This document shows, piece after piece, positions 13,537-53,060 of a stretch of 64,000 bases of DNA. Origin of the DNA: Polaromonas sp. (lineage in GTDB: Bacteria > Pseudomonadota > Gammaproteobacteria > Burkholderiales > Burkholderiaceae_C); NCBI RefSeq assembly GCF_016185115.1, contig NZ_JACPOF010000004.1:365979-429978 (forward strand), in the 5' to 3' direction. The notes beneath the pieces were generated by a model. That model was not told the DNA's origin, did not search any database, and saw only the letters and a program-made list of their open reading frames with translations. The translations under genes were made by a program, and so were the position numbers. Numbering within the stretch: the first letter of the stretch is position 1; every line of letters begins with the position of its first letter.

Positions 13537-13650
13537 TTGCTATTCTTTTAATAGCTGCTCACGTACGTATCTATTGGCTTGGAAGCCGATTTTGTGCCTG
13601 AAAATGGCCTTTTGGATGCTATTTTCGAGGTTTTAACGGCTTCAAAAGCC
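13537..13650 (+). repeat. Dispersed repeat family A, copy 1
   Basis: The fabI-ligE gap (13495-13741) contains a copy starting TTGCTATTCTTTTAATAGC. Conserved parts are a hairpin GCTATT/AATAGC, then GCTGCTCACGTACGTAT, a second small hairpin GGCTT/AAGCC and TGCCTGAAAATGGC. The rest of the gap (13651-13741) is AT-rich with no ORF. The same unit recurs at 31241, 43461 and 52969. Confidence 0.8.
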
Positions 13651-13741
13651 CGCCAAAGTGAGATTGTTACGTTAAGTGAATCAATTTATTTGGAAATTCA
13701 AATTCCATCTGAATTGATACATTGCACGTAATAATTGCCTG

Positions 13742-14542
13742 TCAAGACTCTGCTGGCTCGGCAATCCCGCCCACCACGTTGCTGAAACCCCCATCCACGT
13801 AAGTGATCTCGGCGCTGACGCCGGCTGCCAGGTCGCTCAGCAAAAATGCAGCAACATTGCCTACGTCTTCGATGGTGACGTTGCGGCGAATGGGGGAGGT
13901 TTCCGCCACCACACTCAAAATCTTGCCAAAACCCTTGATGCCACTGGCGGCCAGTGTCTTGATCGGGCCCGCGCTGATGCCATTGGCGCGCATGCCCCGA
14001 TTTTTGCTGCCGAGCGATTCGGCCAGGTAGCGCACCGATGCTTCCAGGCTGGCTTTGGCCAGGCCCATGGTGTTGTAGTTGGGCACAACCTTCTCTGCGC
14101 CCAAATACGACAGCGTCAGGACTGACGCCTTGTCATTGAGGTAGGGCAGGGCAGCCTTGGCCATGGCGTGGAAGCTGTAGGCGCTGATGTCGTGGGCGAT
14201 ACGAAAGGCCTCCCGGCTCAGACCGTCCAGAAAGTCGCCTGCAATCGCCTCGCGCGGCGCAAAGCCAATGGCGTGTACAAAACCGTCAAAGGTGGGCCAG
14301 GTTTTGGTCAGGTCCGTCATCAACTGCGCAATCTGCTCATCGCTGCCAACGTCGCAGTCAAACACAAGCTTGCTGCCAAAGTCTGCGGCAAATTCAGTGA
14401 TGCGGTCTTTAAAGCGTTCGCCCTGGTAGCTGAAGGCAAGCTCTGCGCCCTGCGCGTGGCAGGCCTTGGCAATGCCGTAGGCAATCGAACGGTTGGACAG
14501 GACGCCGGTGATCAGCAGTTTTTTGCCGGTGAGAAAACCCAT
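13742..14542 (-). CDS. fabI: Enoyl-[acyl-carrier-protein] reductase (NADH) FabI
   Basis: 266 residues, a short-chain dehydrogenase fold. It carries the FabI-specific start [21 protein letters not shown] with the NAD-binding glycine region, and the catalytic Tyr146, Tyr156 and Lys163 ([20 protein letters not shown]), at the same numbers as in E. coli FabI. It reduces the trans-2-enoyl group on ACP, the last step of each fatty acid elongation round in the cytosol, and is the target of triclosan and isoniazid-like inhibitors. It is transcribed alone; the downstream gap holds repeat A. Confidence 0.96.
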
Positions 14543-14565
14543 GTGTGTTGCTCCAAGTAATGAAT

Positions 14566-14640
14566 GCCCCCACGCTTTTCACTTCGTGTAATGCGCTGCC
14601 CCCCGAGGGGGCTCATTTTTCTAGGGGCGGCCCGTCGAAA
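14566..14640 (+). repeat. Dispersed GC-rich repeat family B, copy 1
   Basis: The divergent gap between fabI and the yejA-like gene carries GCCCCCACGCTTTTCACTTC..., then CTGCCCCCCGAGGGGGC (a perfect CCCCC/GGGGG hairpin) and GGGGCGGCCCGTCG. Nearly the same 75 bases occur at 37571, an inverted copy lies inside yejF (19951) and variants occur at 17585, 29048 and 33764. Confidence 0.8.
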
Positions 14641-14689
14641 AATGGCCGCTCAGGCTCCAGCACGGCGTGAGGTAAGGCAGAATTGTCGC

Positions 14690-16516
14690 ATGCGGGATTT
14701 GTCTCTTTTGAAGGCTTTGATGCTGGTGAGCTTTGCTTTGCTGGCGCCCGCATCGCATGCCGCCCATGCCTACGCCCAGTTCGGCGACATCAAATACCCC
14801 GCGGGCTTCACGAACTTCAGCTACGTCAATCCGAACGCGCCCAAGCAAGGTGAAATCCGCATGGTGCCGCCCACCCGGCCGACCAATTTCGACAAGTTCA
14901 ACCCCTTCACCCTCCGGGGTACTGCACCCTACAACATAGGCGGGTTGCTGCTCGAAAGCCTGCTTACCGGCAATTCGGAAGAGCCCACCACGGCCTATGG
15001 TTTGCTGGCTGAGGATGTGGAGGTCGCGGCTGACAAGCTCTCTGCCACTTTCCGGCTGAACCCCAAGGCGGTTTTTCACAATGGCAAGCCGGTGCTGGCC
15101 GCTGATGTTGTGCATTCCCTCAAGACGCTGATGAGCAAGGAAGCCGCGCCGCAATTCAAGACGATTTATGCCGAGGTGAAAGACGCCATCGCGGTGTCGG
15201 AGCGTGTGGTGCGCTTTGACTTCGCGACCCCCAACCCCGAACTGCCGCTGGTGGTCGGTGGCATGGCGGTATTCAGCCGCGACTGGGGCATGGCGGGCGG
15301 CAAGCGCAAGCCGCTGGACCAGATCGTCTCGGAGCCGCCGATTGGCTCGGGCCCCTACAAACTGGCATCGTTGGCCATGGGCCGCGACATCACCTATGTG
15401 CGCGATCCGAAATACTGGGCGGCCGACCTGCCCACACGCAAGGGCCTGTACAACTTTGACCGTGTCACCTACAAGATTTACCTGGACGACACCTCCAAGT
15501 TTGAGGGGCTGAAGGCTGGCGAATACGATTTCATGCGCGAGTTCACCTCGCGCAATTGGGCGCGCCAGTACAAGGGCAAGCAGTTCACCTCTGGCGAGGT
15601 CGTCAAGCGCGCTTTCGAGAACAAAAATCCGGGCGACTTTCAGGGCTACATCTTCAACCTGCGCAGGCCGCAATTCCAGGACATACGCGTGCGCAAGGCG
15701 ATTTCGCTGGCGATGGACTTTGAGTGGATGAACCGCCAGCTGTTTTACGGCATTTACAAACGCGTGGACGGCTACTTTCCCAACAGCGAATTTCATGCAG
15801 AAGGCCTGCCCAAGGCGGATGAGCTGGCCCTGCTGGAACCCCTGCGCAGCCAGCTCAGGCCAGAGGTGTTCGGTGCAGTACCCAAATCTGCAAGCACGGC
15901 GCCACCTGGCAGCCTGCGTGAAAACCTGCGCCAGGCCCAGGCATTGCTCAGGGAAGCCGGCTGGACATACCGCGATGGCGCCTTGCGCAATGCGAAGGGC
16001 GAGGCCTTCACCATGGAGTTCCTCAACGACCAGCCTTCACTGGTCCGCATCGTGGGCCCTTTCCAGAAGGCGCTGGAAAAGCTGGGCATCACAATGACCT
16101 ATCGTGTCGTGGACTTTTCGCTCAGCAAACAAAAAATGGACGCCTTTGACTTCGACATCACCACCACGCGTTTGCCCGGCAGCACCGCGCCTGGCGGCGA
16201 ACTGCTGGACCGCTGGGGTTCTGCAGCGGCAAAAACACCCGGATCATCCAACGTCTGGGGCATTGCCGACCCGGCGGTCGATGCGCTGCTGCAAAAAGTG
16301 GTCACGGCAAAGACCCGGCCCGAACTGGGTGCCGCCATGCGTGCGCTGGATCGTGTGCTGACGACGGCGTATTACTCGGTGCCGCAGTATTACGGCGATG
16401 CTTTCCTGATTGGCTACCGCCCCAAACCGTTTGTGTTGCCTGCGGTAATCCCGCCTTACTACGAGGCCGACACCTGGGCCATGAGCACCTGGTGGGCATC
16501 CGAAAGCAACAAATAA
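14690..16516 (+). CDS. yejA: Peptide ABC transporter substrate-binding protein (YejA-like)
   Basis: 608 residues from the ATG at 14690; an in-frame extension to 14564 would be encoded by repeat B and is rejected. A cleavable signal peptide of about 24 residues (ending ASHA) is followed by a family 5 extracellular solute-binding domain. YAQFGDIKYPAGFTNFSYVN and GNSEEPTTAYGLLAEDVEV are typical of YejA, which binds oligopeptides in the periplasm; in Escherichia the YejABEF system also imports microcin C. It is the first gene of a yejABEF-type operon; the next ATG begins 1 base after its stop. Confidence 0.9.
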   Translation: MRDLSLLKALMLVSFALLAPASHAAHAYAQFGDIKYPAGFTNFSYVNPNAPKQGEIRMVPPTRPTNFDKFNPFTLRGTAPYNIGGLLLESLLTGNSEEPTTAYGLLAEDVEVAADKLSATFRLNPKAVFHNGKPVLAADVVHSLKTLMSKEAAPQFKTIYAEVKDAIAVSERVVRFDFATPNPELPLVVGGMAVFSRDWGMAGGKRKPLDQIVSEPPIGSGPYKLASLAMGRDITYVRDPKYWAADLPTRKGLYNFDRVTYKIYLDDTSKFEGLKAGEYDFMREFTSRNWARQYKGKQFTSGEVVKRAFENKNPGDFQGYIFNLRRPQFQDIRVRKAISLAMDFEWMNRQLFYGIYKRVDGYFPNSEFHAEGLPKADELALLEPLRSQLRPEVFGAVPKSASTAPPGSLRENLRQAQALLREAGWTYRDGALRNAKGEAFTMEFLNDQPSLVRIVGPFQKALEKLGITMTYRVVDFSLSKQKMDAFDFDITTTRLPGSTAPGGELLDRWGSAAAKTPGSSNVWGIADPAVDALLQKVVTAKTRPELGAAMRALDRVLTTAYYSVPQYYGDAFLIGYRPKPFVLPAVIPPYYEADTWAMSTWWASESNK

Positions 16517-16517
16517 C

Positions 16518-17552
16518 ATGGCCAGCTACATCCTCAAACGCCTGCTGCTGATGATTCCGACCCTGTTCGGCATCCTGCTGGTGACGTTTGCCATGGTGCA
16601 GTTTGTACCGGGCGGGCCGGTGGAGCAGATGGTGTCGCAGCTGCAGGGCCGTGATTCAGGCGGCGAGCGCGCGACGGCATCCGGCGCGGGTTACAGGGGG
16701 CGTCAGGGTGTGGACGCCAAACGCATAGAAGAAATCAAGGTGCTCTACGGCTTCGACAAGCCGGTGCATGAGCGGTTTATCCAGATGCTGGGCCAGTTTG
16801 CCCGCTTTGACCTGGGCAACAGTTTTTACCAGCGCAAGGATGTGTGGCAACTGGTGAAGGAGAAGCTGCCGGTCTCCATCAGCCTCGGCTTGTGGACCTT
16901 TTTCATCAGCTACCTGATAGCCGTGCCGCTGGGCGTGGCCAAGGCGGTGAGGGCGGGGACGCGCTTTGACTTCATCACCACCCTGATTGTGCTGGTGGGT
17001 TACGCCATTCCGGGCTTTGTGCTGGGCGTGGCGCTGGTGGTTATTTTTGGCGGGCAGTTGCAGTGGTTTCCCTTGCGCGGGCTGACGTCGAGTAATTGGG
17101 AAACCTTGAGCTGGGGAGCCAAAATCACCGATTACCTGTGGCACATCACGCTGCCCGTCATTGCCATGGTGCTGGGCAGTTTTGCCGTGACGGCGGTGCT
17201 GACCAAGAACTCATTTCTGGAGGAAATCCGCAAGCAGTACGTGCTGACGGCGCGCGCCAAGGGCCTGAGCGAGCGGCAGGTGCTGTGGAAGCACGTGTTC
17301 CGCAATGCCTTGATTCCCATCATCACGGGCTTCCCGGCAGCGTTTATCGGCGCTTTTTTCACGGGTTCGCTGTTGATCGAAACCCTATTTTCGCTCGATG
17401 GGCTGGGCCTGCTCAGCTATGAAAGTGTGATACGGCGCGACTATCCGGTGGTGCTGGGCACGCTGTATTTGTTCACGCTGATCGGGCTCGTGACGAAACT
17501 CATCAGCGACCTTTGTTATGTCTGGGTAGATCCAAGGGTGAAGTTTGACTAG
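16518..17552 (+). CDS. yejB: Peptide ABC transporter permease (YejB-like)
   Basis: 344 residues with about six hydrophobic segments. The N-terminus LKRLLLMIPTLFGILLVTFA is the classic DppB/OppB/YejB start. The EAA coupling loop lies around LTARAKGLSERQVLWKHVFRNAL and contacts the ATPase. The YejB-typical insertion (residues 37-75, Gly/Arg-rich) between helix 1 and the next conserved block is present. With YejE it forms the inner membrane channel for peptide import. Confidence 0.92.
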   Translation: MASYILKRLLLMIPTLFGILLVTFAMVQFVPGGPVEQMVSQLQGRDSGGERATASGAGYRGRQGVDAKRIEEIKVLYGFDKPVHERFIQMLGQFARFDLGNSFYQRKDVWQLVKEKLPVSISLGLWTFFISYLIAVPLGVAKAVRAGTRFDFITTLIVLVGYAIPGFVLGVALVVIFGGQLQWFPLRGLTSSNWETLSWGAKITDYLWHITLPVIAMVLGSFAVTAVLTKNSFLEEIRKQYVLTARAKGLSERQVLWKHVFRNALIPIITGFPAAFIGAFFTGSLLIETLFSLDGLGLLSYESVIRRDYPVVLGTLYLFTLIGLVTKLISDLCYVWVDPRVKFD

Positions 17553-18693
17553 CTTGACCACCCGCCCCGAAATGGCCTCTGGCCATCTCCCCCCCGAGGG
17601 GGCGCCGCTGGCCGCCGGGCAGAGCCCGATCCGCGGCGGCCCTGGCAAAGACATCGCGTCTGTTGTCAGCCTGAGTCCAGGCCGCCGCGCCTGGAACCGC
17701 TTTCGGCGCAACAAGCTGGGCTTCTACAGCCTGGTTCTGTTCTCGAGCATGGTCGTCCTCAGCCTGTTTGCAGAAGTTCTGTCAAACGACAAGCCGCTGG
17801 CGGTCAGCTATAACGGTACGCTGTACTTCCCGCTGGTGAAAGACTATTCAGAAAAGACTTTCGGCGGTGACTTCGAGACACCCGCAGACTACCTCGACCC
17901 GTTCATCAAGGACAGGATCAAGGGTGGCGACAACTGGGCCATCTACCCGCCCAACCCCTACGGGCCGCGCACCCTCAACTACTTCGCCAAAGAGCCCAAC
18001 CCGTCAGCACCTTCGCGTGACAACTTCTTCGGCACCGATGACCGGGGGCGTGACCTTCTTGCCCAGCTGATTTACGGCTTCCGCCTCAGCGTCCTGTTCG
18101 GGCTTGCCCTGACACTTATCGGGGTAGTCATAGGCGTCATTACCGGCGCCATTCAGGGTTATGCCGGCGGCAAGACCGACCTGGTGTTTCAGCGCTTCAT
18201 GGAAATCTGGAGCTCCATGCCCGAGCTCTACCTGCTGATCATTTTCAGCGCCGTGTTCTCGCCCAGCGTCGCCTTGCTTCTTTTCCTGCTCAGCCTGTTC
18301 GGCTGGATGGGCCTGTCGGACTATGTGCGCGCCGAGTTTTTGCGCAACCGCCAGCTTGACTACGTGCGGGCCGCGCGCGCCCTTGGCGTGAGCAACCTGC
18401 AAATCATGTGGCGGCATATCCTGCCGAACAGCATGACGCCTGTGGTGACGTTTTTGCCCTTTCGCATGAGCGCCGCGATTCTGGCGCTGACTTCTCTGGA
18501 CTTTCTGGGCCTGGGCGTGCCGCCCGGAACGCCGTCGCTGGGCGAACTGCTCAGCCAGGGCAAGGCCAATATCGACGCGTGGTGGATTTCGCTGTCGACC
18601 TTTGCGGTGCTTGTCGTGACCCTGCTTCTGCTGACTTTTATGGGCGATGCGCTGCGTGATGCGCTGGACCCGCGCAAGGTAGATCAGGCATGA
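17545..18693 (+). CDS. yejE: Peptide ABC transporter permease (YejE-like)
   Basis: 382 residues from a TTG at 17545, chosen because AAGGG at 17534-17538 gives a well-spaced ribosome site; an ATG at 17572 is the alternative. The conserved YejE part starts only near residue 45 (SLSPGRRAWNRFRRNKLGF). The long periplasmic loop (ADYLDPFIKDRI), NFFGTDDRGRDLLAQLIYGF, and the EAA loop VRAARALGVSNLQIMWRHIL are as in the family. The first ~40 residues are encoded by a copy of GC-rich repeat B (17585-17650) and resemble no family N-terminus. It overlaps yejB by 8 bases and yejF by 4. Confidence 0.9.
   Translation: MTSLTTRPEMASGHLPPEGAPLAAGQSPIRGGPGKDIASVVSLSPGRRAWNRFRRNKLGFYSLVLFSSMVVLSLFAEVLSNDKPLAVSYNGTLYFPLVKDYSEKTFGGDFETPADYLDPFIKDRIKGGDNWAIYPPNPYGPRTLNYFAKEPNPSAPSRDNFFGTDDRGRDLLAQLIYGFRLSVLFGLALTLIGVVIGVITGAIQGYAGGKTDLVFQRFMEIWSSMPELYLLIIFSAVFSPSVALLLFLLSLFGWMGLSDYVRAEFLRNRQLDYVRAARALGVSNLQIMWRHILPNSMTPVVTFLPFRMSAAILALTSLDFLGLGVPPGTPSLGELLSQGKANIDAWWISLSTFAVLVVTLLLLTFMGDALRDALDPRKVDQA
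17585..17650 (+). repeat. Repeat B-like sequence inside the yejE 5' coding region
   Basis: CTCCCCCCCGAGGGGGCG followed by GCGGCGGCCCTGG resembles the hairpin core and tail of family B (CTGCCCCCCGAGGGGGC ... GGGGCGGCCC). It encodes part of the non-conserved N-terminus of YejE. Similarity is weaker than for the other copies. Confidence 0.5.
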
Positions 18694-20396
18694 CGAAAAA
18701 CCTGATTGACGTTCAAGACCTGCGGATTGCCTTTGCAGGCAAGGAGGTGGTGCATGGCATCGACTTCCACATTGCCCCCGGTGAAAATCTCGCCCTGGTC
18801 GGTGAATCCGGCTCCGGCAAAACCATCACGGCCCTGAGTCTGTTGCGCCTGGTGCAGAACGCCGCCGTCAGCGGTAGCGCGGTGTTTGACAGCCATGAAG
18901 GGCCGGTGGACCTGCTGGCGCTTGAGGAAACCCGCCTGCGAGGTATTCGGGGCCAGGAGATTTCCATGATCTTCCAGGAGCCGATGACCGCGCTCAACCC
19001 GCTGTTCAGCGTGGGCGACCAGATCGGCGAAGTGCTTCAGCTTCACAAAGGCCTGACCCGCACGGAAGCCTGGGAAGAGGCCATCAAGTTGCTGGCTGAT
19101 ACCGGTATTTCAGAGCCTGAGCGCCGCGCGCTGTCCTTCCCGCACCAGCTCTCAGGCGGGCAACGGCAGCGCGCCGTCATTGCCATGGCACTGGCCTGCC
19201 AGCCCAGACTGTTGCTGGCCGACGAACCCACCACGGCGCTCGATGTGACCGTTCGCGGCCAGATTCTGGACCTGCTCGCCAGCCTGCAGCAGAAAAATGG
19301 CATGGCTGTGCTCATGATCACCCATGACCTCAACCTGGTCCGGCGCTTTGCCGACCGGGTGGCGGTCATGGAAAACGGCTACATCGTGGAACAGGGCAGG
19401 GTAGGCGAGGTTTTCGCCAACCCGCAGCACCCTTACACCCGCAGGCTGATTGACAGCACCCCGGCGCGTGACCTCCAGGAATCGCAACCCAATGCCGCAC
19501 TGGCGGGCGTAATGAATGCGCAAAACCTGCGCGTGAGCTACCCGGTTGCCGTGGGAGGCATCAAGGGCTGGTTCAAAAAGGGCGAGTTTGTGGCTGTGAA
19601 GGGCGCGAGTTTTGACATTCCTGCCGGCCAGACCCTGGGCGTGATTGGCGAATCGGGGTCGGGCAAATCCAGCCTCGCGCTGGCTGCGCTTGGCCTGCAT
19701 CCGCATCAGGGCGAGTTGCAGGTAGTCGGCAAGGCCTGGGGCACCAATGCGGCCAACGACAAGGCTTTGCGCCGTGCCGTGCAGGTGGTCTTCCAGGATC
19801 CGTTTTCATCGCTTTCGCCGCGTATGACGATTGAGGCTATCGTCGGGGAAGGCTTGCTTGTTCACCATCCCGAACTGAATGCTGCCCAGAGGCAGGAAAA
19901 GGTTCTGGCAGCTTTGGCCGATGTGGGTATGCTGGAATCGCCAGATGTCGTCGCCGGGCCGCCCCAAGATGCATCGCACCCCCTCGGGGGGCAGCGAAAT
20001 ACACGCGGTGATGGAGTGCGGGGGCAGTATTTCCCGGGGTTGCTGCAGCGCTATCCGCATGAGTTTTCTGGCGGCCAGCGCCAGCGGCTGGCGATTGCCC
20101 GGGCCCTGATGGTCGACCCGCAGTTGCTGGTACTGGATGAACCCACCAGCGCGCTGGATGTCACCATACAAAAGCAGGTGCTGGCCCTGCTGCAGCGGCT
20201 GCAGCGGGAACGCGGGCTGAGCTATTTGCTGATTACACATGACGTGGACGTGATCCGGGCCATGGCCCACCAGGTCATGGTCATGAAGGACGGCGAAGTG
20301 CTGGAATCCGGCACCTTGAGCGACATCGTCGACTTCCCGCAGCACCCCTATACCCGCACGCTGGTGGCAGCACATTCGCCGGCACCCGTGGCTTAA
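18690..20396 (+). CDS. yejF: Peptide ABC transporter ATP-binding protein, two ATPase domains (YejF-like)
   Basis: 568 residues; two fused ABC domains as in YejF. The first has Walker A GESGSGKT (38-45), signature LSGGQRQR and Walker [13 protein letters not shown]. The second has Walker A GESGSGKS, signature FSGGQRQR and Walker [13 protein letters not shown], each followed by its switch His (MITHD, LITHD). Each domain ends in an oligopeptide-type motif ([20 protein letters not shown]). It powers peptide uptake through YejBE. Between Asp-containing ESPD (about 419) and RYPHEFSGG, roughly 25-30 extra residues (about 421-446) are encoded by an inverted copy of repeat B; the frame stays open on both sides. 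The insertion precedes the second signature motif, on the helical subdomain. Confidence 0.93.
19951..20025 (-). repeat. Repeat B copy inserted in frame within yejF
   Basis: Read on the minus strand this 75-base stretch follows the repeat B consensus: GCCCCCGCACT..., GTGTATTTCGCTGCCCCCC, GAGGGGGTGCG and GGGGCGGCCCGGCGA. It matches copy 1 (14566-14640) at roughly 70-75% of positions by eye. Length 75 keeps the yejF reading frame. Confidence 0.75.
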
Positions 20397-20420
20397 AGGG
20401 CATCCGGGCACGCAAAGTGC

Positions 20421-20449
20421 TTGCGCGAGCCTGTTTCACAGGTTACAAT
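20421..20449 (+). promoter_or_regulatory. Promoter of the rimP-nusA-infB operon
   Basis: TTGCGC at 20421-20426 and TACAAT at 20444-20449 with a 17-base spacer, in the 176-base gap after yejF. Predicted start of transcription is near 20456, just before the leader hairpin. Confidence 0.6.
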
Positions 20450-20464
20450 AAGAGCTTCACGACC

Positions 20465-20496
20465 AAATGGGCGGGTTCACACCGCCCATTTTTTTT
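20465..20496 (+). terminator. Leader hairpin with T-run, possible attenuator of the rimP operon
   Basis: Perfect 10-base stem AAATGGGCGG / CCGCCCATTT with loop GTTCACA followed by five further T. It starts about 10 bases after the predicted transcription start and 77 bases before the rimP ATG, so it is more likely an attenuator or source of a ~40-base RNA than the yejF terminator. Confidence 0.65.
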
Positions 20497-29047: not shown

Positions 29048-29204
29048 GCCCCCACGTTCGCTCACTTCGTGTAGCTCTCTGCCCCCCGAGGGGGCCGTTC
29101 GCCTGCGGTCTGGCGGAGCCAGTCCCGCGGCTCTGCTTGCAAAGGCCTCGCTTCGCTTGTGGGCAGTAATTTCCTCTCCGTTCGGGCCGAGCTTGTCGAA
29201 GCTC
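29048..29204 (+). repeat. Composite repeat B-long + D downstream of typA
   Basis: Starts one base after the typA stop with GCCCCCACG, continues with TCACTTCGTGTA and CTGCCCCCCGAGGGGGCCG, then the long form GCCTGCGGTCTGGCGGAGCC and CGCGGCTCTGCTTGC. It ends with the D motif at 29178-29204 (CCGTTCGGGCCGAGCTTGTC). The same composite occurs inverted at 33736-33851. Confidence 0.75.
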
Positions 29205-31240: not shown

Positions 31241-31397
31241 TTGCTATTATTTCAATAGCTGCTTACGCCCGTATTTAAAGGGCTGTAGCCAGATTTGATG
31301 TTTTTTTTGGGGTTTTTTGAGCCTTCAAGACGTTCAAAAGGCTGTTTGGGCTCAAATTGTTAATATGGAAGTTAACATTGTTAAGTTCTATATTAAC
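31241..31397 (+). repeat. Dispersed repeat family A copy 2 with AT-rich inverted-repeat module
   Basis: The convergent gap 31240-31424 holds TTGCTATTATTTCAATAGC, then GCTGCTTACGCCCGTAT and GGCTGTAGCC (family A). It is followed at 31359-31376 by GTTAATATGGAAGTTAAC and, after 3 bases, by its near-perfect reverse complement (16 of 18 positions) to 31397. The same 18-mer appears at 43590. No ORF. Confidence 0.8.
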
Positions 31398-33735: not shown

Positions 33736-33851
33736 CCTTCGACAGGCTCAGGACGAACGGAAATAGGGAAAGCGAGCGTGGCTTCGCAAGCAGGGGCCGC
33801 GGAACTGGCTTCGCCAGGCCGCAGGCGCAGCGGCCCCCTCTGGGGGCAGCA
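33736..33851 (-). repeat. Composite repeat B-long + D, inverted copy
   Basis: Part of the 367-base non-coding gap 33597-33963. Read on the minus strand it gives CTGCCCCCAGAGGGGGCCG, CTGCGGCCTGGCGAAGCCAG, CGCGGCCCCTGCTTGCGAAG and then CCGTTCGTCCTGAGCCTGTC, the same order as at 29075-29204. The two copies face each other across the DMT-to-lipoprotein segment. Confidence 0.75.
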
Positions 33852-33953
33852 GGTTATTGGGGTCAGACGCCAATTTCGCTTCAGTGCAAAGCACTGCACC
33901 CTTGGGGCGAGCCGAAGGCTCGGCGAATTTGGACTCTGACCCCAAAAACCTGC
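33849..33953. repeat. Long inverted-repeat element behind smpB
   Basis: Arms of 31 bases at 33849-33879 and 33923-33953 match in inverted orientation at 27 positions, including TTGGGGTCAGA / TCTGACCCCAA. The 43-base centre holds two more hairpins, AGTGC-AAA-GCACT and GAGCC-GAA-GGCTC. The GGGGTCAGA ends resemble ends of REP-type elements mobilised by Y1 tyrosine transposases, but no transposase gene is present. It ends 10 bases before the smpB stop codon. Confidence 0.7.
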
Positions 33954-37570: not shown

Positions 37571-37645
37571 GCCCCCACGCTTGTCACTTCGTGTACTGCG
37601 CTGCCCCCCGAGGGGGCTAATTTTCCTAGGGGCGGCCCGTCGGAA
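37571..37645 (+). repeat. Dispersed GC-rich repeat family B, copy between guaB and guaA
   Basis: GCCCCCACGCTTGTCACTTC, GTGTACTGCGCTGCCCCCCG and AGGGGGCTAATTTTCCTAG, then GGGGCGGCCCGTCG; it is almost identical to 14566-14640. It begins right after the guaB stop. Its CCCCCCGAGGGGGC hairpin could affect read-through into guaA. Confidence 0.8.
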
Positions 37646-37690
37646 AATTGACGCTTCGTTTTAGGCCCCGGGTAGCGACTGAATAAATCA

Positions 37691-43449: not shown

Positions 43450-43460
43450 CGGATGTGTGA

Positions 43461-43656
43461 TTGCTATCGTTTCAGTAGCTGCTCGCGTGCGTATTTATTG
43501 GCCTGCAGCCATATTTGGCACCTGAAAATGGCATTTTCAGGGCTTTTTTGAGCATTTTTTGTGTTCGCAGCACTGCTGAAAACAAAAAAGTTAATATGGA
43601 AGTTAACTTTTTGCTATTTTTTAACATCTACATTAAAAAATTAACGTAGATATTAA
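43461..43656 (+). repeat. Dispersed repeat family A copy 3 with AT-rich operator-like module
   Basis: TTGCTATCGTTTCAGTAGC, GCTGCTCGCGTGCGTATTTA, TGGCCTGCAGCCA and CACCTGAAAATGGC form the family A unit (43461-43560). At 43590-43607 stands the 18-mer GTTAATATGGAAGTTAAC, identical to 31359-31376, followed by an inverted pair TTAACATCTACATTAA / TTAACGTAGATATTAA (43621-43656). The module ends about 58 bases before the tadA-dehalogenase ATG. The gap 43450-43714 contains no ORF. Confidence 0.8.
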
Positions 43657-43699
43657 ATTTGTTCCTGAACCGACAGATCACCGCCTCCTGCAGCCCTGA

Positions 43700-45109
<1,410 letters not shown>

Positions 45110-45577: not shown

Positions 45578-46186
45578 CTATCGCGGCAACTGAAACACCG
45601 GCAATCCCCACCCCAGAAAAATCGCACTCAGCCGCAGCGCCACCACGGCGATCATCCCAACCCAAAACGCAAGCGGCTCGCGCAAACCGAGTGCCTTGAG
45701 CGCCAGGTAAAGCGAGATGCCGGCAATCGCGGCGCTGGCGTAGATGTCCTGACGCAGCAGCAGCGGAATCATGTTGCTGCAGATATCACGCATCACGCCG
45801 CCCGCCACGCCGGTCATGGTGCCCATGAGGACGACGATGATGGGCGAGAGCCTGGCTTTCTCGGCCAGTTGCGCGCCCGATAGCGCAAACAACGCCAGCC
45901 CGAGCGCGTCGGCAATCAGCAAGGCCTTGGAAGGAATCGGAAAGACCTGAACATAGGCAACGGTGCCCAGCGCCGCCGCCAGGATGACCCACAGATAGAC
46001 CGGATTGCCCATCCAGAACACGGGGTGGCGGTTCATCAGCACATCGCGCAGGGTGCCGCCGCCAATGGCGGTGAGTGATGCCAGAACAATCACGCCAAGT
46101 AAATCGAGTTCAAGCCGGCCGGCGGCGAGCGCACCGCTGACGGCAAAAACAGCGACACCGGCGAGATCGAGGAAGTAGAGCAGCAT
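45578..46186 (-). CDS. Trimeric intracellular cation channel family protein
   Basis: 202 residues with about seven hydrophobic segments and two copies of the TRIC/UPF0126 motif: AVSGALAAGRLELDLLGVIVLASLTAIGGGTLRD and ALSGAQLAEKARLSPIIVVLMGTMTGVAGGVMRD. The kinked glycines in each repeat shape the K+-conducting pore of bacterial TRIC homologues. It is an inner membrane protein, convergent with the GNAT gene. Confidence 0.92.
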   Translation of the reverse strand: MLLYFLDLAGVAVFAVSGALAAGRLELDLLGVIVLASLTAIGGGTLRDVLMNRHPVFWMGNPVYLWVILAAALGTVAYVQVFPIPSKALLIADALGLALFALSGAQLAEKARLSPIIVVLMGTMTGVAGGVMRDICSNMIPLLLRQDIYASAAIAGISLYLALKALGLREPLAFWVGMIAVVALRLSAIFLGWGLPVFQLPR

Positions 46187-46249
46187 GGTTGAGGCCGTTT
46201 ATACCGCGCCGGACGCGGCTCCCAGCGTTGCGGTGGGATACTTGCAGCC

Positions 46250-47209
46250 GTGAAAAAACATATCTACATCTATTCGCCGTCGAGCGCCGTGCGCGACAAG
46301 GCCGCTTTCAAACGGGGCGTGAAGCGCCTGCAGGCCCTGGGCCATGAGGTTGAGGTCGATGAGGCGGCGCTGGCCAAGTACCAGCGTTTTGCTGGTGATG
46401 ACGCTACCCGCCTGGCTGCGATTGACCGGGCTGCGGCCAGCGGCGCCGATGTGGCACTGATAGCGCGTGGCGGTTATGGCCTGACGCGCATCCTGCCGGC
46501 CATCAACTACAGGGCCGTCGCCAAAGCCATAGACAAGGGCACCCGTTTTGTGGGTCTCAGCGACTTCACAGCCTTCCAGATGGCGCTGCTCGCCAAGACC
46601 GGCGCCGTGACCTGGGCCGGGCCTGCGGTGGGCGAGGATTTTGGTACACCCGATACACCTGATGACATCATGGAAGCGTGCTTTGACGACCTGATCACGG
46701 GGCAGGGCGAGGGCAGCGGCTGGACCTTGCCGAAAACTTCAGCCTTTGACAAGTCATTTCAGGTGAAGGATGCAGTGCTCTGGGGCGGCAACCTGGCCGT
46801 GCTGGCCTCACTGGTGGGCACGCCCTACCTGCCCGCCATCAAGGGGGGCATTCTGTTTGTCGAAGACGTGGCAGAGCACCCCTACCGTGTTGAGCGCTTC
46901 ATGACGCAATTGCTGCATGCCGGTGTGCTCGCTTCGCAAAAAGCCATCATCTTCGGCCAGTTCAGCAACTACAAACTGGTGCCCGGTTATGACAGTGGCT
47001 TCAACATGGCGGCGGTGGTGGCCAGGCTGCAAAGCCAGGTTAAAGCGCGCATCCTCACAGGGCTGCCGTTTGGCCACGTGGCCACCAAGGTGTTGCTGCC
47101 GGTAGGTTTGAAGACAACGCTGGCAGTGGAGGGCAGGGATGCGTTTGTATTGTGGGGGCACCTGCATGCCGGCGGCGACGGGCTTCACGGTCATCACCAT
47201 CACCCCTGA
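46250..47209 (+). CDS. ldcA: Muramoyltetrapeptide LD-carboxypeptidase
   Basis: 319 residues from a GTG at 46250. S66 peptidase fold: IARGGYGLTRILPAINY, the nucleophile Ser in FVGLSDFTAFQMAL, the Glu in ILFVEDVAEHPYRVERFM, and the catalytic His in LPFGHV. It removes the terminal D-Ala from cytosolic tetrapeptides during murein recycling. The C-terminus ends in a His-rich tail (HAGGDGLHGHHHHP) that may bind metal or be fortuitous. It is divergent from the TRIC gene. Confidence 0.9.
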   Translation: MKKHIYIYSPSSAVRDKAAFKRGVKRLQALGHEVEVDEAALAKYQRFAGDDATRLAAIDRAAASGADVALIARGGYGLTRILPAINYRAVAKAIDKGTRFVGLSDFTAFQMALLAKTGAVTWAGPAVGEDFGTPDTPDDIMEACFDDLITGQGEGSGWTLPKTSAFDKSFQVKDAVLWGGNLAVLASLVGTPYLPAIKGGILFVEDVAEHPYRVERFMTQLLHAGVLASQKAIIFGQFSNYKLVPGYDSGFNMAAVVARLQSQVKARILTGLPFGHVATKVLLPVGLKTTLAVEGRDAFVLWGHLHAGGDGLHGHHHHP

Positions 47210-47230
47210 TGGTCAAGGCGAAACGCCCAT

Positions 47231-47256
47231 AAAAAAACCGCCCCGGAGGGCGGTTT
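47231..47256 (-). terminator. Terminator of the small unknown gene 47277-47630
   Basis: Nine-base stem AAACCGCCC / GGGCGGTTT (47235-47256, loop CGGA) with a seven-A run at 47231-47237 that reads as T on the minus strand, 21 bases after the stop at 47277. The same hairpin can end ldcA read-through. Confidence 0.85.
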
Positions 47257-47276
47257 GAAGTCCTTGGTGTCTCTTA

Positions 47277-47630
47277 TTATCGAAATCTGAAACTGGCCTT
47301 GCCGCTCAGGCTCTTGGGCAGAAGGCCCTTGAACTGGCCACTGATGTCGGCAATCTTCTCGCGTGCCACTGTCTCGCCATGGGTATTGGCAAGAATCGCC
47401 ATCACGTCACTGCGCGCATACCAGAGACCTTGAATATCTGGCGCGTAACGCACACGGCGGGTGACTGCCGGAAACTTCTTTTCACCGTACTCACCGAGCT
47501 CCTTCAACATGCGCTGGCGGATGGCTTCAATGCGGTGTTCTAGTGCCACAGGCGCTGGGTCGCTACGCCCCAGAAGGGCCATGTAGCTGCTTTTAAGCTG
47601 GGGCAGGAAAGAGGCGGTGAGTGCGCGCAT
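47277..47630 (-). CDS. Unknown small protein (paralogue of 32814-33188)
   Basis: 117 residues, helical, soluble, no signal peptide. It shares with the ECF-operon protein the block DIQGLWYARSDVMAILANTHGE and ISGQFKGLLPKSL. The C-terminal SGKASFRFR is basic. It is a single-gene unit with its own terminator, so this paralogue is not tied to a sigma factor. Nothing else identifies a function. Confidence 0.8.
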   Translation of the reverse strand: MRALTASFLPQLKSSYMALLGRSDPAPVALEHRIEAIRQRMLKELGEYGEKKFPAVTRRVRYAPDIQGLWYARSDVMAILANTHGETVAREKIADISGQFKGLLPKSLSGKASFRFR

Positions 47631-47869
47631 GGCTTGCTGTAATACTTAAATGGTTCACTGAGGAAACTATTCTTCTGTAAGATTAAGACTACATGAGGTT
47701 TCCGGCAAGGGGATTGCCACCAGTCCGTGTTGCTCGAACAACATATAAATCAACGAGTTAGTAACCAAATGTCAAGTTGATTCTGGCTTTGGACAATGTT
47801 CAGGGCAGCAAACCTGCCTGCTACAGGGCTCGAACCAGCAAAACCCGCCCGTACTTACACATACAAAAA

Positions 47870-49306
47870 ATGACAAACACTACCGTTTACCCGTCGCACT
47901 ACATCAACGGCCAATGGGTCAAGGCAACTTCTTCAGAAACCCTGCCTGTCCATGACTCCAGCACTGAAGAACTGATGGCGACTGTGCCCTCAGGCACTGC
48001 TGCTGAAGCCGAGGCTGCCGTTCTGGCCGCACGCAAGGCATTCGACAGCTGGTCGGCCTTGCCCGTAGAGACACGTGCTGCCTATATAGACAAGGTGGCA
48101 GCAGGCGTGAAAGCCCGGACGGAAGAATTGGCCGTGGCGATTGCACGCGAAGTAGGCATGCCGCTGAAGATGGCACGCGCCGTGCAGGTCGGCGGCCCGG
48201 CCTGGCACTGGGGCAACTTCGCAAAGATTGCACGCAACTTTGAATGGGAAAAGAAAGTTGGCAATTCGCTGGTGGTGCGAGAGGCGATCGGGGTGGTCGG
48301 CTGCATCACGCCGTGGAACTTCCCGCTCAGCCAGATCACACTGAAGATCGCGCCCGCCATGGTTGCCGGTTGTACGGTGGTGCTCAAGCCCAGCGAGATC
48401 GCGCCGGTCAACGCCATGATTCTCGCTGAAATCATTCATGAGGCGGGCATTCCCGCCGGCGTCTTCAACCTGGTCAACGGCAGCGGCCCCGAGGTGGGCG
48501 AGGTGCTTGCGACACACCCGGAAGTTGACATGGTGAGTTTTACCGGCTCGACCCGCGCCGGCAAGCGTGTCAGCGAATTGGCCAGCCAGACAGTCAAGCG
48601 CGTGGCACTTGAATTGGGTGGCAAATCGGCCAGTTTGATTCTTGAAGATGCCAATCTGGAAGCCGCCGTCAAGGGCACCATAGGTGCCTGCATGCTCAAC
48701 AGCGGCCAGACCTGCTCGGCCCACACCCGCATGCTCGTGCCCGCCAGCCGCTACGAGGAAGCCAAGGCGCTGGCGCAGGCAACCATCGCCAAATTTGGCA
48801 TTGGCCCCAGCCTTGAGGAAACCAGCAAGCTGGGCCCTCTGGTCAGCGCGGCCCAGCGCGACCGCGTGCTCGGGTTCATCAAGACCGGCATTGACGAAGG
48901 CGCAGACGTGATTGCAGGCGGTGCGGAGCCACCAAAAATGGACAAAGGCTATTTTGTGCAGCCCACCATCCTGGGCATCAAACCGACTGATACGCTCGCC
49001 CAGGAAGAAATCTTTGGCCCGGTGCTGGTGGTCATTCCATACAAGGATGAAGAAGAAGCCGTGGCGATTGCCAACAGCACCATTTATGGGCTGGGGGGCG
49101 CGGTCTGGGGTGGCTCGGATGAACGCGCCATCCAGGTGGCCCGCCGTATGCGAACCGGGCAGGTGGACATCAACGGCGGCCCGTTCAATGCGAACGCGCC
49201 GTTCGGTGGCTACAAGCAGTCGGGCAACGGACGCGAAAACGGGGTCTACGGCTTCGAGGAATTCCTTGAGTTCAAGTCGCTCCAGCTGAAGCCGGTTGCC
49301 GTCTGA
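47870..49306 (+). CDS. Aldehyde dehydrogenase family protein
   Basis: 478 residues from the ATG at 47870; no ribosome site is visible before it, and an in-frame TTG at 47777 would add an unlike N-terminus. NAD-binding and catalytic residues are in place: Asn150 (TPWNFP), Lys173 (LKPSE), the FTGSTRAGK loop, Glu248 (LELGGKS) and nucleophile Cys282 (NSGQTC). It oxidises an aldehyde to an acid with NAD(P). Overall it resembles the DhaS-like subgroup of broad-specificity dehydrogenases. It is divergent from the small unknown gene; the 239-base gap 47631-47869 holds no clear promoter. Confidence 0.9.
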   Translation: MTNTTVYPSHYINGQWVKATSSETLPVHDSSTEELMATVPSGTAAEAEAAVLAARKAFDSWSALPVETRAAYIDKVAAGVKARTEELAVAIAREVGMPLKMARAVQVGGPAWHWGNFAKIARNFEWEKKVGNSLVVREAIGVVGCITPWNFPLSQITLKIAPAMVAGCTVVLKPSEIAPVNAMILAEIIHEAGIPAGVFNLVNGSGPEVGEVLATHPEVDMVSFTGSTRAGKRVSELASQTVKRVALELGGKSASLILEDANLEAAVKGTIGACMLNSGQTCSAHTRMLVPASRYEEAKALAQATIAKFGIGPSLEETSKLGPLVSAAQRDRVLGFIKTGIDEGADVIAGGAEPPKMDKGYFVQPTILGIKPTDTLAQEEIFGPVLVVIPYKDEEEAVAIANSTIYGLGGAVWGGSDERAIQVARRMRTGQVDINGGPFNANAPFGGYKQSGNGRENGVYGFEEFLEFKSLQLKPVAV

Positions 49307-49410
49307 ATCATCTGGTTCTGGTCACCCGGGCTGCTTTTTGCACTGCTGCCCGCGCCTGTCACGGGACGTGTGATTTAATAACTTGAGTCACACTTTCCAA
49401 CAAAAAACGA

Positions 49411-50340
49411 ATGGCTGAAGTTACCGTCGTCTTTGCCGACCTTACCGGCAGCACAGGCGTTTTTGAATCGCTGGGCAATGCAAAGGCAACCCAGGCGATT
49501 ACCCGTTTGACCCAATGGATAGGGAAGGTGTGCACCGCACAGGGCGGGGAAGTCGTCAAAACGCTGGGTGATGGTGTGTTGATGGTGTTTGCCGACAATA
49601 CGGCCGCCATAGAGTCCGTCACCGAAATGCAGCGGGTCCACTCCGAGCGCATCAAGACCTGGCCTGACAAGCTCAAGATGCATTTGCAGGTAGGCATGGC
49701 ACGCGGCGAGGTCATAGAGCAGAGCCAGGACTATTTCGGTGATGCAGTAAATGTGGCGTCGCGGCTGTCGGACCTGTCCGGCCCGGACCAGATTCTCGCG
49801 ACTGACGTGGTCATCGACAGCCTGGCGCCTGACAGCCTTGTGCGCTTTCGCAGCCTGGGCGCGATGGACATACGTGGCCGCAATGAAAGTTGCAACGTCT
49901 ACCGCGTGGAATGGCAAAACGAGGTGCTGTCAGACTTTTTCACGGTGCCCGCGCCGCTTAACATTTCGCCGTTTGCGCCCAAGGGCACACCGCAATTGGG
50001 CTCGATAGCGCTGTCCTGGCTGGACGTCGATGCTTCGTTCACGGCCGAGCAACTGCCCGTGCATCTGGGCCGTGACGCCGATGCGCAATTCGTTGTCAAT
50101 GACCCGCGCGTGTCGCGCCTGCATGCCAAGATCATGTGGCGCGCCGGCAAGTTTTACCTTGAAGATGTCAGCAGCTACGGTACCTGGGTACGTTTTGCCG
50201 GCGGCGATGCCATCATTGCCCTGCGCCGGCAGGAATGCGTGCTGCTGGTTGAAGGCGAGATTGCGCTGGGTGCGCCTTTCGAGGATTTCACCGTGCCGAC
50301 GGTGAGTTTCAAGTTTCCGTCTGCTGCCCGCGCACGCTGA
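49411..50340 (+). CDS. Class III adenylate cyclase domain fused to FHA domain
   Basis: 309 residues, no membrane segment. The cyclase domain starts at residue 1 (VVFADLTGST with metal Asp10), continues with VVKTLGDGVLMVF (Lys50, second metal Asp54) and QDYFGDAVNVASRL, where Asp107 is at the adenine-selecting position and Asn114 and Arg118 are the transition-state residues. All six class III positions are kept, so cAMP synthesis as a homodimer is likely. Residues 215-275 form an FHA domain (LGRDADAQFVVNDPRVSRLHAKI) that reads phosphothreonine. Start codon lacks a ribosome site. The next gene begins 53 bases downstream. Confidence 0.9.
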   Translation: MAEVTVVFADLTGSTGVFESLGNAKATQAITRLTQWIGKVCTAQGGEVVKTLGDGVLMVFADNTAAIESVTEMQRVHSERIKTWPDKLKMHLQVGMARGEVIEQSQDYFGDAVNVASRLSDLSGPDQILATDVVIDSLAPDSLVRFRSLGAMDIRGRNESCNVYRVEWQNEVLSDFFTVPAPLNISPFAPKGTPQLGSIALSWLDVDASFTAEQLPVHLGRDADAQFVVNDPRVSRLHAKIMWRAGKFYLEDVSSYGTWVRFAGGDAIIALRRQECVLLVEGEIALGAPFEDFTVPTVSFKFPSAARAR

Positions 50341-50393
50341 CAAGGCACAAACAGCGTACCGGCTGCGCGGCACATTACCTGAAATCCCCACAC

Positions 50394-52919
50394 ATGATCT
50401 GGTTCAAACGGGTTCTCTGGTCTGTGTTGCTGCTGCTTCTGCTGGCGGCCGCCTTCATCGCTTTTTATATCTACCGGACCTTCCCGGCGCTGGACGGTGA
50501 CCTGCGCGCAGCCGGCCTGCAAGCGCCGGTCAGCGTGGCACGCGATGGCGCTGACGTCACCCACATCAGGGCGCAGTCGCCGCACGATGCCTGGTTTTCA
50601 CTCGGTTATGTGCATGCACAGGAGCGCGGCTGGCAGCTTGAGTTCAACCGCCGCGTGATGCACGGCGAGCTGTCTGAAGCTTTCGGCCCTGCCACGCTGG
50701 AGACCGACAAGCTGCTGCGGACCCTGGGCATCATGCGCGCGGCAGGGCAGCAATGGCAGAAGCTGCCGCCGGAAGGCAAGGCGGCGCTGCAGGCCTACAG
50801 CGACGGCATCAGTGCCTTTTATGCAGGCTCGTCGCAGGCGCTTTCGCCGGAGTTTCATATCCTGCGCGTCAAGCCGGGCGGTGCATCCGGCAAACCCTGG
50901 ACACCGCAGGACGGGATAGGCTGGTCGCTGATGATGGCGCTGGATCTGGGCGGCAACTGGGGTACCGAGTTTGCACGCCTGACCGCCGCCAAAAGCGTGA
51001 ACACCGCAACGCTCTGGCAGCTGTTCCCCCCCTATCCGGGCGAGCAGCCTGCTTCAAACACCGACTTCTCAAAGCTTTACACGGGCCTGAATATCTACCG
51101 CAAGGCGATACCTGATCCGGCTGCCGTGAAAACCAGCGCAGGCGATTTGAACAGCGCAATGGTCGCCATGGCCGGTGGCATCAACGACTGGGCGCGCGGC
51201 CTCGGCATTGTTGACGGCAAGGGCTCCAACAGCTGGGTGGTGGCAGGCGCCCGCACCGCCAGCGGCAAACCGCTGCTGGCCAATGATCCGCATCTGGGCC
51301 TTTCAGCGCCTGCCATCTGGTACTTTGCGCGCCTGTCAGCACCGGCAGGCAAAGCGGCCGACGGCAGCATGTCAGCGCCCATAGACGCCATGGGCGCAAC
51401 CCTGCCGGGCCTGCCATTTGTGGTGCTAGGCCGCACCAGCAAAGTCGCCTGGACATTTACCAATACCGCGCCGGACGTGCAGGATCTTTATCTCGAGCAG
51501 ATCAACCCCGCCAACCCGCGCCAGTACCGCGTGCCTGCGCCGGGCGGCGCCGTGGCCTGGGAAGACTTCAAAACCCGCGACGAATCCATCAAGGTCAAGG
51601 GCGAGGCGGATGTGCTGCTCACGGTGCGTGAAACCCGCCACGGCCCTGTGCTCAGCGATGCGCAGAAGCCGCATGCCGAACTGCTGGACACGAAACGATT
51701 TGTGCTGGCGCTGGGCTGGGGCGCGCTCGAGGCCGACAACCAGACCATTCTTGCCGGCCTGCGCGCCAATCAGGCCCAGTCGGTCGATGAGGTGATTGCA
51801 GCTTTCTCGGCCTACCACTCGCCGATGCAGAACCTGGTGACGGCCGATGTGTCGGGGCAGATGGCTTTCAAGGCGATTGGCAAGGTGCCGCTGCGCAAGC
51901 CTGAGAACGACATTCTGGGCCTGGCGCCGTCGCCCGGCTGGGAGGCGCGTTACGACTGGGCCGGTTGGCTGCCCTATGCCCAGACGCCTGAAACCCGGCA
52001 GTCCGCGATCGAGGCCAAAGGCTGGCTGGCAACAGCCAACCAGCGCATCACGCCGCCGGGCTATCCCTTCTTTATTGGCCAGGACTGGACGGTTCCCTAC
52101 CGCCACGACCGCATAGACCAGTTGCTGGCGGCCAGACCGAAACACGACATGGCCAGCATGCAGGCGGTGCAGGCTGATGTGCTGTCACCCGCCACCGTCC
52201 GGCTTTTGCCTTTTCTGCAAAAGTCATTGCAGCAAGCCGCCGCGTCACCGCTGACAGATCAGGTGCGGCGTGCCATGCAGGGCTTTGACGGCAGCATGCG
52301 CGCCGGGCAGGCTGCACCGCTGGTGTTCGCGGCCTGGGCCGACGAGCTGACGCGTGGCGTGCTCGGCGGCAAGCTGGGCAAGGATCTCTTCGGCACGCTG
52401 TATGGCAAACGCCATTTCCGAAGCACGATTGAAGCCATCATGGAGGCGGATGACGTGGCCTGGTGCGGCATTGCAGGTTGTGCCGCGCAGTCTGCTGCGG
52501 CGCTTCAAAGGGCATTGAACAGGCTGCAGGCCGAGTACGGCAGCGACATTGGTCAATGGACCTGGGGCAGGGCGCACCAGGCGCTGTCTGCCCACCGTCC
52601 CTTTGCCAATGTGCCGCTGTTTGCCAGATTTTTTGATGTGAAGGTGCCCACCGGGGGCGACACCTTTACCGTCAACGTGGGGCAGTACTGGTCTGTCGAC
52701 GGCAAGACGGCCTTCACCAGCCGGCAAGCGGCATCGATGCGGGCGGTTTACGACATGGCGGATCTGGAGAATTCGCGTTTTATTTACCAGACCGGGCAGA
52801 GCGGGCTGGTGTTCTCAAGCCGCTATCGCGACATGCGCGATACCTGGGCGGAGGTGGGCCACCGTCCGCTGCAGATGAACCCGGCCGTCATCGCGCATCA
52901 GCTGACCCTTATTCCCTGA
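50394..52919 (+). CDS. Penicillin acylase (Ntn hydrolase) family protein
   Basis: 841 residues. A hydrophobic N-terminus (8-28) exports or anchors the precursor. The alpha part holds the family motif HDAWFSLGYVHAQERGWQLE, and the new N-terminal nucleophile after autocleavage is Ser278 in GKG-SNSW. Further down, LLANDPHLGLSAPAIWY and the Asn in the NLVTADVSGQMAF region match the beta chain. Such enzymes cleave acyl amides in the periplasm, including penicillin G, cyclic lipopeptides and acyl-homoserine lactones; the real substrate is not evident. It follows the cyclase gene on the same strand. Confidence 0.9.
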   Translation: MIWFKRVLWSVLLLLLLAAAFIAFYIYRTFPALDGDLRAAGLQAPVSVARDGADVTHIRAQSPHDAWFSLGYVHAQERGWQLEFNRRVMHGELSEAFGPATLETDKLLRTLGIMRAAGQQWQKLPPEGKAALQAYSDGISAFYAGSSQALSPEFHILRVKPGGASGKPWTPQDGIGWSLMMALDLGGNWGTEFARLTAAKSVNTATLWQLFPPYPGEQPASNTDFSKLYTGLNIYRKAIPDPAAVKTSAGDLNSAMVAMAGGINDWARGLGIVDGKGSNSWVVAGARTASGKPLLANDPHLGLSAPAIWYFARLSAPAGKAADGSMSAPIDAMGATLPGLPFVVLGRTSKVAWTFTNTAPDVQDLYLEQINPANPRQYRVPAPGGAVAWEDFKTRDESIKVKGEADVLLTVRETRHGPVLSDAQKPHAELLDTKRFVLALGWGALEADNQTILAGLRANQAQSVDEVIAAFSAYHSPMQNLVTADVSGQMAFKAIGKVPLRKPENDILGLAPSPGWEARYDWAGWLPYAQTPETRQSAIEAKGWLATANQRITPPGYPFFIGQDWTVPYRHDRIDQLLAARPKHDMASMQAVQADVLSPATVRLLPFLQKSLQQAAASPLTDQVRRAMQGFDGSMRAGQAAPLVFAAWADELTRGVLGGKLGKDLFGTLYGKRHFRSTIEAIMEADDVAWCGIAGCAAQSAAALQRALNRLQAEYGSDIGQWTWGRAHQALSAHRPFANVPLFARFFDVKVPTGGDTFTVNVGQYWSVDGKTAFTSRQAASMRAVYDMADLENSRFIYQTGQSGLVFSSRYRDMRDTWAEVGHRPLQMNPAVIAHQLTLIP

Positions 52920-52968
52920 GGCCCAGAGGCGCCCAACCTTGCCTTAAAGGGAATTTGAGGCAGCAGAA

Positions 52969-53060
52969 ATGCTATAAATAATATAGCTGCCCACGTATGT
53001 ATCTATTGGCCTGGAGCCACTTTTTGGCATCAGAAATGCCCATTTGGGGCTCCTGAAAGC
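52969..53060 (+). repeat. Dispersed repeat family A, copy 4
   Basis: ATGCTATAAATAATATAGC, GCTGCCCACGTATGTATCTA, TTGGCCTGGAGCCA, then TTTGGCATCAGAAATGCCC. The first hairpin reads GCTATA/TATAGC where copies 1 and 2 have GCTATT/AATAGC, a paired change. It lies in the convergent gap between the acylase and katE. Confidence 0.8.

Follow-up and report, generated by a model that had tools for sequence, protein, structure and literature searches.

Why should one bacterial chromosome carry the same intergenic repeat many times over? The question is raised by a 64,000-nucleotide stretch of Polaromonas sp. DNA (hereafter the window). It holds four copies of the repeat, all on the plus strand, which start at positions 13537, 31241, 43461 and 52969. 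An earlier note had placed the copies at these positions, and the sequence bears this out. The note had also offered three possible functions: a 3' end processing signal, a non-autonomous mobile unit or a nucleoid-protein site. Here we describe an element with a conserved core, an arm of set length and helical phase, and terminal palindromes. The element may be a putative double-stranded DNA wrapping site, recurring past the 3' ends of genes at intervals of ~22 kb, with gyrase as the leading candidate for the wrapping protein. We hold this reading tentatively, with doubt slightly outweighing belief.

Anatomy and helical phase of the element

Allowing up to three mismatches, a search of the 4.81-Mb genome for the core pattern TTGCTAT-N7-ATAGCTGCTNACG gave 209 matches. 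The reversed pattern, searched in the same genome under the same conditions, gave none. Hence, the genome-wide excess of copies anticipated for this family is borne out. The matches divide 106 to 103 between the strands, so the shared orientation reported for the window copies is correct but merely local. Copies were studied in a readable sample of 2.02 Mb, comprising contigs C31 and C14 in their entirety, C13:1-520000 and C20:1-280000. A profile made solely from element positions 1-50 found 87 copies in this sample; 86 scored above 28 bits and one scored 15.1. The GC content of the element is 42%.

The layout is a core of ~68 nt, then ~60 nt of weakly conserved DNA, then palindromes of several classes. 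The unit had been taken to be ~100 bp. It is in fact ~155-200 bp, as copies run on through the spacer into the palindromes. Three motifs originally quoted for the family are consensus-like, but GCTGCTCACGTNCGTATNTA is exact in copy 1 only, GGCNCCTGAAAATGGC in copy 3 only and TTGGCCTGGAGCCA in copy 4 only. In a seed set of 32 copies, conserved 5' letters are followed by repeated T and A tracts and then by palindromes at a near-constant place. Four palindrome classes were defined from this set: P1 is GTTAA(N8)TTAAC, P2 is TTTAACGTATACGTTAAA with TTTGCC variants, P3 is TGTAAAGTTGACTTTACA and P4 is ACAGCTATATTAGCTGT.

Palindromes P1-P4 are present in 78 of the 87 copies. Nine copies are without them and, by eye, around five of these end in a TAATGCATCA...AAGCATTAA-like sequence. 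Measured from the element start, the first palindrome is at 129 nt in 41 of the 78 copies and at 128-130 nt in 52, with the others within 78-157 nt. The offsets of P2 are mainly 129, 139, 149, 159 and 179, and so progress in ten-nt steps. Palindromes and elements occur together: 130 of 136 palindrome matches in the 2.02 Mb fall no more than 400 bp from an element, and no P1-P4 occurred in the two 250-bp flanks that served as controls for the 87 copies. Twenty more P2 places were chosen because no listed element was nearby; among the matches listed, all 20 adjoin an element. Palindrome class is not linked to core positions 1-50. In a test for sub-families, identity at these positions was 0.741 within classes and 0.748 between them. 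Class does associate with three positions next to the palindrome (127, 128 and 121) and with positions 90 and 61. Six inverted pairs of elements lie within 450 bp, all with the palindromes facing inward. The opposite arrangement does not occur among the 87 copies, and one same-strand pair is < 1 kb apart.

The arm carries a helical signal. Across positions 50-128, A+T content in the 87 copies rises and falls with a period of 10.5 bp (power 1.86; the maximum of 500 row-shift controls was 0.104), and this wave is phase-locked to the core. It is also seen in the sub-ranges 79-128 (power 0.71, control 0.06) and 98-128 (0.29, control 0.047). The 37 copies of C14 and C20, which were retrieved only after the wave had first been noticed, repeat it independently, as do the 50 copies of C31 and C13 alone. 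No 10.5-bp wave was found in the downstream flank, and upstream the flank shows a very faint peak of 0.028 (control maximum 0.032). The letters from ~100 to 127 are hardly conserved; pair identity among 70 copies is 0.306, compared with 0.26 expected from composition. The wave is thus kept where letters are nearly unconserved: the letters change, but length and phase stay fixed. Ordinary motif finders miss a signal of this type. The earlier note had argued for selection on structure rather than decay. Selection is backed by the conserved spacing and helical phase, but RNA or hairpin structure as its target is unsupported in this genome.

Placement, spacing and distribution

All 87 copies lie between predicted genes and none is inside one, which agrees with what had been stated for the four copies in the window. 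Genes were predicted with a purpose-made codon-bias caller rather than a published program. The gene context is convergent for 43 copies, tandem for 40 (24 antisense to both genes and 16 sense) and divergent for 4. For comparison, the 1218 background gene pairs with a gap > 20 bp comprise 162 convergent, 832 tandem and 224 divergent pairs. In 37 of 60 cases the last palindrome is 0-60 bp from the facing stop codon.

Spacing was measured as the coefficient of variation (CV) of gaps, with copies < 1 kb apart merged. Random intergenic places, weighted by gene-pair class, provided the null. The CV is 0.46 for C31 (28 sites), 0.50 for C14 (19 sites) and 0.43 for C20 (15 sites), against nulls of ~0.9. 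The shares of 1000 nulls with a CV as low are 0, 0.005 and 0.002 respectively. Thus, the element is more evenly spaced than random in three of the four contigs. By eye, copy strand has no clear relation to GC skew.

The core is widespread. Across 299 genomes of the family, the number of core-pattern matches with up to two mismatches varies patchily, from 0 to 626, where reversed controls give 0 to 4 per strand. Counted from this 299-genome table, ~40 of 141 genera include at least one genome that reaches 10 matches. Within the genus, 22 genomes have 0 to 258 matches at up to one mismatch. A longer pattern of this genome's own type matched two records, both Polaromonas; records of the genome itself possibly lay outside that scan. 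The palindromes are more restricted: P1-P4 were absent within 330 nt in 60 copies from 15 other genera and other Polaromonas, and from 356 kb of genome G312 containing 37 profile matches. Because the core occurs in many genera, comparing core-only genomes with extended ones offers a natural experiment.

We also compared the sites of the window copies in relatives, with 11 loci compared at each of the sites of copies 1, 2 and 4. At the copy 2 site the element is absent, with short gaps in its place, from 7 of 8 relatives that retain both flanks; the eighth has another insert of ~0.9 kb. At the copy 4 site it is likewise absent from 8 of 8 that retain both flanks. By eye, no target-site duplication was seen at copies 2 and 4 relative to these empty sites. 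Hence, the suggested comparison of occupied and empty sites revealed missing copies but no target duplication. The copy 1 site has both flanks in four relatives, two of which hold > 1 kb between them. G309 has a core-like copy here. G340 (locus L298) has an inverted core pair with similar A/T tracts, placed around a GC-rich hairpin with A6/T6 flanks, and no P palindromes. By eye, other G340 copies in 60 kb are apparently core-only. The copy 1 site therefore appears old, with a variable end module, and the extended form is not strictly limited to this genome. At the copy 3 site, nine relatives have no sense copy; L103, L104 and L109 have an antisense core right before a start codon. In these three orthologues of 43450-43760, the outer arm of the core resembles a ribosome-binding site (AGGAGC or AGAAGC) ahead of the deaminase start, a possible case of exaptation.

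A candidate wrapping site and its rivals

A 10.5-bp wave of set length that ends in dyads points to DNA wrapped on a protein. The conserved 5' core would anchor a recognition protein. Over the next ~75 bp, A/T tracts on one helix face every 10.5 bp would allow the DNA to bend round the protein surface. The wrap would then end, at a set distance, in one or more dimer-binding dyads (P1-P4 or rarer kinds). Copies past gene 3' ends, chiefly those between convergent genes, would sit where positive supercoils meet. We infer that the wrapper is most likely DNA gyrase, or else another wrapping or nucleoid protein, and that the sites would concentrate the removal of supercoils locally and act as markers of topological domains. 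A nucleoid-protein site is the best match among the three functions first suggested. A 3' processing signal agrees poorly with the data, given the copies antisense to both neighbours (24 of 87), the weak hairpins and the scarcity of T-runs described below. A bolder version, which we consider rather doubtful, has ~200 evenly spaced, purpose-built wrapping sites at 3' ends setting ~22-kb domains. Each would combine a conserved anchor, a phase-coded and near-letter-free arm of fixed length and dyad docking modules that can be exchanged; in a single lineage, an old repeat found across the family would have been upgraded into this device. With dedicated sites that can be counted and are evenly spaced, direct tests of what positions supercoil domains in bacteria would become possible.

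Known gyrase sites offer a comparison. In the section of PMC6379681 concerned, the Escherichia coli gyrase motif is described as 130 bp long, with two 47-bp flanks in which GC content is periodic at 10.75 bp, and intergenic bacterial interspersed mosaic elements of the BIME-2 type are described as transcription-independent gyrase sites in E. coli. The element is like the gyrase motif and strong gyrase sites (SGS), such as the phage Mu SGS and BIME-2, in its helically phased G/C and A/T content (10.75 bp in E. coli versus 10.5 bp here), and like BIME-2 it is intergenic and repeated. Unlike in strong gyrase sites, its arm is preceded by a conserved core and runs into specific palindromes, and its binding of gyrase is putative. 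Phage Mu served as a positive control. Its annotated gyrase cut site, at 17879, adjoins a segment at the 99.95th percentile of 10.5-bp power. With the 50-128 wave of the element as template, the cut-site place ranks 6th of 73,278 (chance ~0.03, by our own estimate). This match backs wrapping; for gyrase in particular it is only suggestive.

A number of observations weigh against the wrapping-site reading. With a wider and a narrower template, the Mu place comes 32nd and 11th respectively. Two arms surround a centre in the gyrase motif, and the best correlation in a two-arm symmetry search of the element was 0.54, at 92-92.5, which is unconvincing for a periodic signal. Intrinsic curvature, or wrapping by a different protein, would account for the wave just as well. 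Furthermore, copies in other genomes are without the wave past position 78. At 79-128, it is missing from the 60 copies of other genomes (0.016; control maximum 0.036), compared with 0.71 in this genome, and from 36 G312 copies (0.021; control maximum 0.069). Over 50-128 the same 60 copies reach a power of 0.14 (control maximum 0.041) because of the two A/T tracts of the core. It follows that the wave is not needed for the core family. Even spacing is not universal either. C13 is unevenly spaced (CV 1.37) owing to a void of 172 kb, at ~331-503 kb, that is without an element. With a GC content of 0.54, against 0.59 elsewhere, this stretch is probably an acquired island; the first 335 kb of C13 have a CV of 0.62, for which no null was computed. 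Among the matches listed, spacing looks random in G333 (CV 1.04) and G226 (0.98) and is mildly even in G003 (0.78, P 0.023).

The element could instead be a non-autonomous mobile repeat, with the phased arm and end dyads needed by a transposition complex and the even spacing produced by target immunity. This explanation is supported by the empty orthologous sites of copies 2 and 4, by the patchy copy number within the genus and by the likeness, by eye, of same-genome copies in the second part of the core (G031, G064 and G312). Even so, we judge it unlikely. Among 90 copies, the most similar two share 77.3% identity over 128 nt, which argues against a recent burst of mobility. Palindrome class varies independently of core positions 1-50, no terminal inverted repeats were seen by eye (the palindrome end has no mirror image of the 5' TTGCTAT), and no link to a transposase was found, Y1_Tnp being the only one searched. 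The mobile unit of the earlier note thus gains from the missing copies but not from any sign of recent movement. We disfavour strongly the more specific idea of a repetitive extragenic palindromic (REP)-like element mobilised by a REP-associated tyrosine transposase (RAYT) of the Y1 type. Its intergenic location, abundance, dyad core and six inverted pairs are as expected for such an element, and Y1_Tnp is found in this genome and in 37 of 40 hand-chosen high-copy genomes. However, Y1_Tnp is also found in 30 of 40 hand-chosen low-copy genomes. The core is present at 9 of 32 Y1_Tnp loci, two of which have two matches in one orientation, and no inverted bracket was seen among them. Locus L142, covering ~1.5 kb on each side of the genome's own RAYT-like gene, has no core match at three mismatches. 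The definition of REPs in the part of PMC2817692 concerned includes a GT(A/G)G head beside the palindrome; GTAG or GTGG occurs as a head in 2 of the 87 copies.

Other explanations treat the palindromes as RNA. A bidirectional transcription terminator module would suit the placement at gene 3' ends and the short distance from last palindrome to facing stop codon. It would also suit the AAAA or AAAT before the first palindrome (50 of 78 copies), the TTTT after it (29 of 78) and the GC-rich hairpin found instead at the copy 1 site of G340. We find it improbable nonetheless. Mean hairpin energies are weak (P2 -2.3, P1 -5.1, P4 -7.1 and P3 -7.3 kcal/mol), a T-run of at least 5 accompanies the palindrome in 6 of 78 copies, and the 10.5-bp wave is left unexplained. 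An intrinsic terminator, with a stable stem and T-run, was rejected on account of these stems and T-runs. Half-sites of P2 combine freely (31 of 58 homotypic, 36.2 expected), and P1 favours unlike halves (4 of 58 homotypic, shuffle mean 12.2), which weakens hairpins. Such combinations fit double-stranded recognition of protein half-sites, not hairpins. A structured RNA, in the form of a 3' untranslated region, processing signal or small RNA, has very little to commend it. By eye, many of the folds predicted for 30 cores from other genera include a second stem; only 17% of these cores have z < -2. In this genome the first dyad (mean z -2.61) and the palindrome block (-2.58) both fold better than shuffles, as inverted repeats must; positions 24-52 do not (mean z 0.24). 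The paired change noted in the first hairpin proved not to be covariation. Pair 8-14 is paired in 36 of 87 copies (shuffle mean 36.2). Pair 7-15, the only first-stem pair to vary on both sides, is paired in 71 of 87, below the shuffle mean of 75.4 (T/A 40, T/G 29, C/A 16, C/G 2). Hence, the first stem has no statistically supported covariation in the 87 copies. The element also occurs in both orientations relative to genes. Searches for an Rfam family found one tRNA only in the window at gathering score, and no match up to E 0.1 in six loci.

The four window copies and other repeats

All four copies show the core, the arm and an end block of inverted repeats. Copy 1 has a short-chain dehydrogenase gene on one side and a DNA-ligase-domain gene on the other. 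Its core (13537..13604), a GCTAT-N7-ATAGC dyad with the conserved stretch after it, was identified by pattern search and from sequence. The phased arm, element positions 50-128, is at 13586..13664 and has a 10.5-bp power of its own of 3.3. The terminal block (13666..13736), which begins at offset 129, consists of unclassified inverted repeats without P1-P4. Copy 2, which separates an enoyl-CoA hydratase-type gene from one lacking a Pfam match, has a core at 31241..31308, found in the same two ways, and a phased arm at 31290..31358 that is ~11 nt shorter (own power 1.07). Two P1 palindrome matches (31359-31376 and 31380-31397) make up its end, at 31359..31397. Copy 3 is flanked by an FMN-binding-domain gene and a deaminase/hydrolase gene. 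Here, the core recognised from sequence is at 43461..43528, the arm is at 43510..43588 (own power 1.34) and the palindromes, at 43590..43657, comprise a P1 (43590-43607) and a P2 (43620-43637), with another P2-like dyad visible by eye at 43640-43657. Copy 4 lies between a penicillin amidase gene and a catalase gene. Its core (52969..53036) was likewise read from sequence, its arm is at 53018..53096 (own power 1.51), and a P4 palindrome, ACAGCTATATTAGCTGT, was identified by palindrome match and sequence at 53100..53116. All of these features are on the plus strand. Past copy 4, at 53170-53195, is a further dyad, TTGCTAC-N7-GTAGCAA, that resembles the first dyad of the core.

Several known repeats invite comparison with the element. 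Uptake signal sequences of Pasteurellaceae are dispersed and evenly spaced, with helically spaced A/T tracts, a short core and far more copies; the element, conversely, amounts to ~200 copies of a ~180-bp unit. A miniature inverted-repeat transposable element was considered and rejected, as neither terminal inverted repeats nor, at copies 2 and 4, a target-site duplication was seen by eye. Our literature search, whose coverage left out most subscription journals, found no paper naming the element. In the section of PMC5217627 concerned, published in 2017, two unnamed motif pairs are reported: GCTTAT(N)5AAGCG, with 114 copies in Acidovorax ebreus, and ATAGCT(N)22CAAAAG, with 125 copies in Polaromonas naphthalenivorans. 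Like the element, these are mainly intergenic, with many between convergent genes. They are assigned no function there and, unlike the element, are reported in that section without a larger unit, arm, palindromes or spacing. The first pair is exact in 2 of 30 other-genus copies and the second in 1 of 30 other-Polaromonas copies; neither occurs exactly in the 87 copies of this genome. The core was probably glimpsed in these motifs.

REP and BIME sequences with RAYT, as described in the part of PMC2817692 concerned, are abundant, intergenic and palindromic repeats that form inverted pairs, as the element does. The element differs in having no flanked RAYT, in the rarity of the head and in its much longer unit. 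The beta-proteobacterial repeat element (BRE) is, in the section of PMC3110155 concerned, 75-91 bp long and often tandem, with a mean GC content of 69% in Bordetella. Like our element it is dispersed and mostly intergenic, and it is found in Comamonadaceae including Polaromonas. This description sets the two apart, given the lower GC content of the element and its single same-strand pair < 1 kb apart.

The window also contains a second, GC-rich repeat of ~85 nt with GCCCCCCGAGGGGGC inside, at 14566-14650, 37571-37655, 29048-29094 and 19979-20025. Two of its copies are 92% alike and the others are partial; it is possibly BRE-like. Finally, a 31-nt inverted repeat lies at 33849-33953 (GGGGTCAGA / TCTGACCCC), with arms that are 87% complementary and 43 nt apart.

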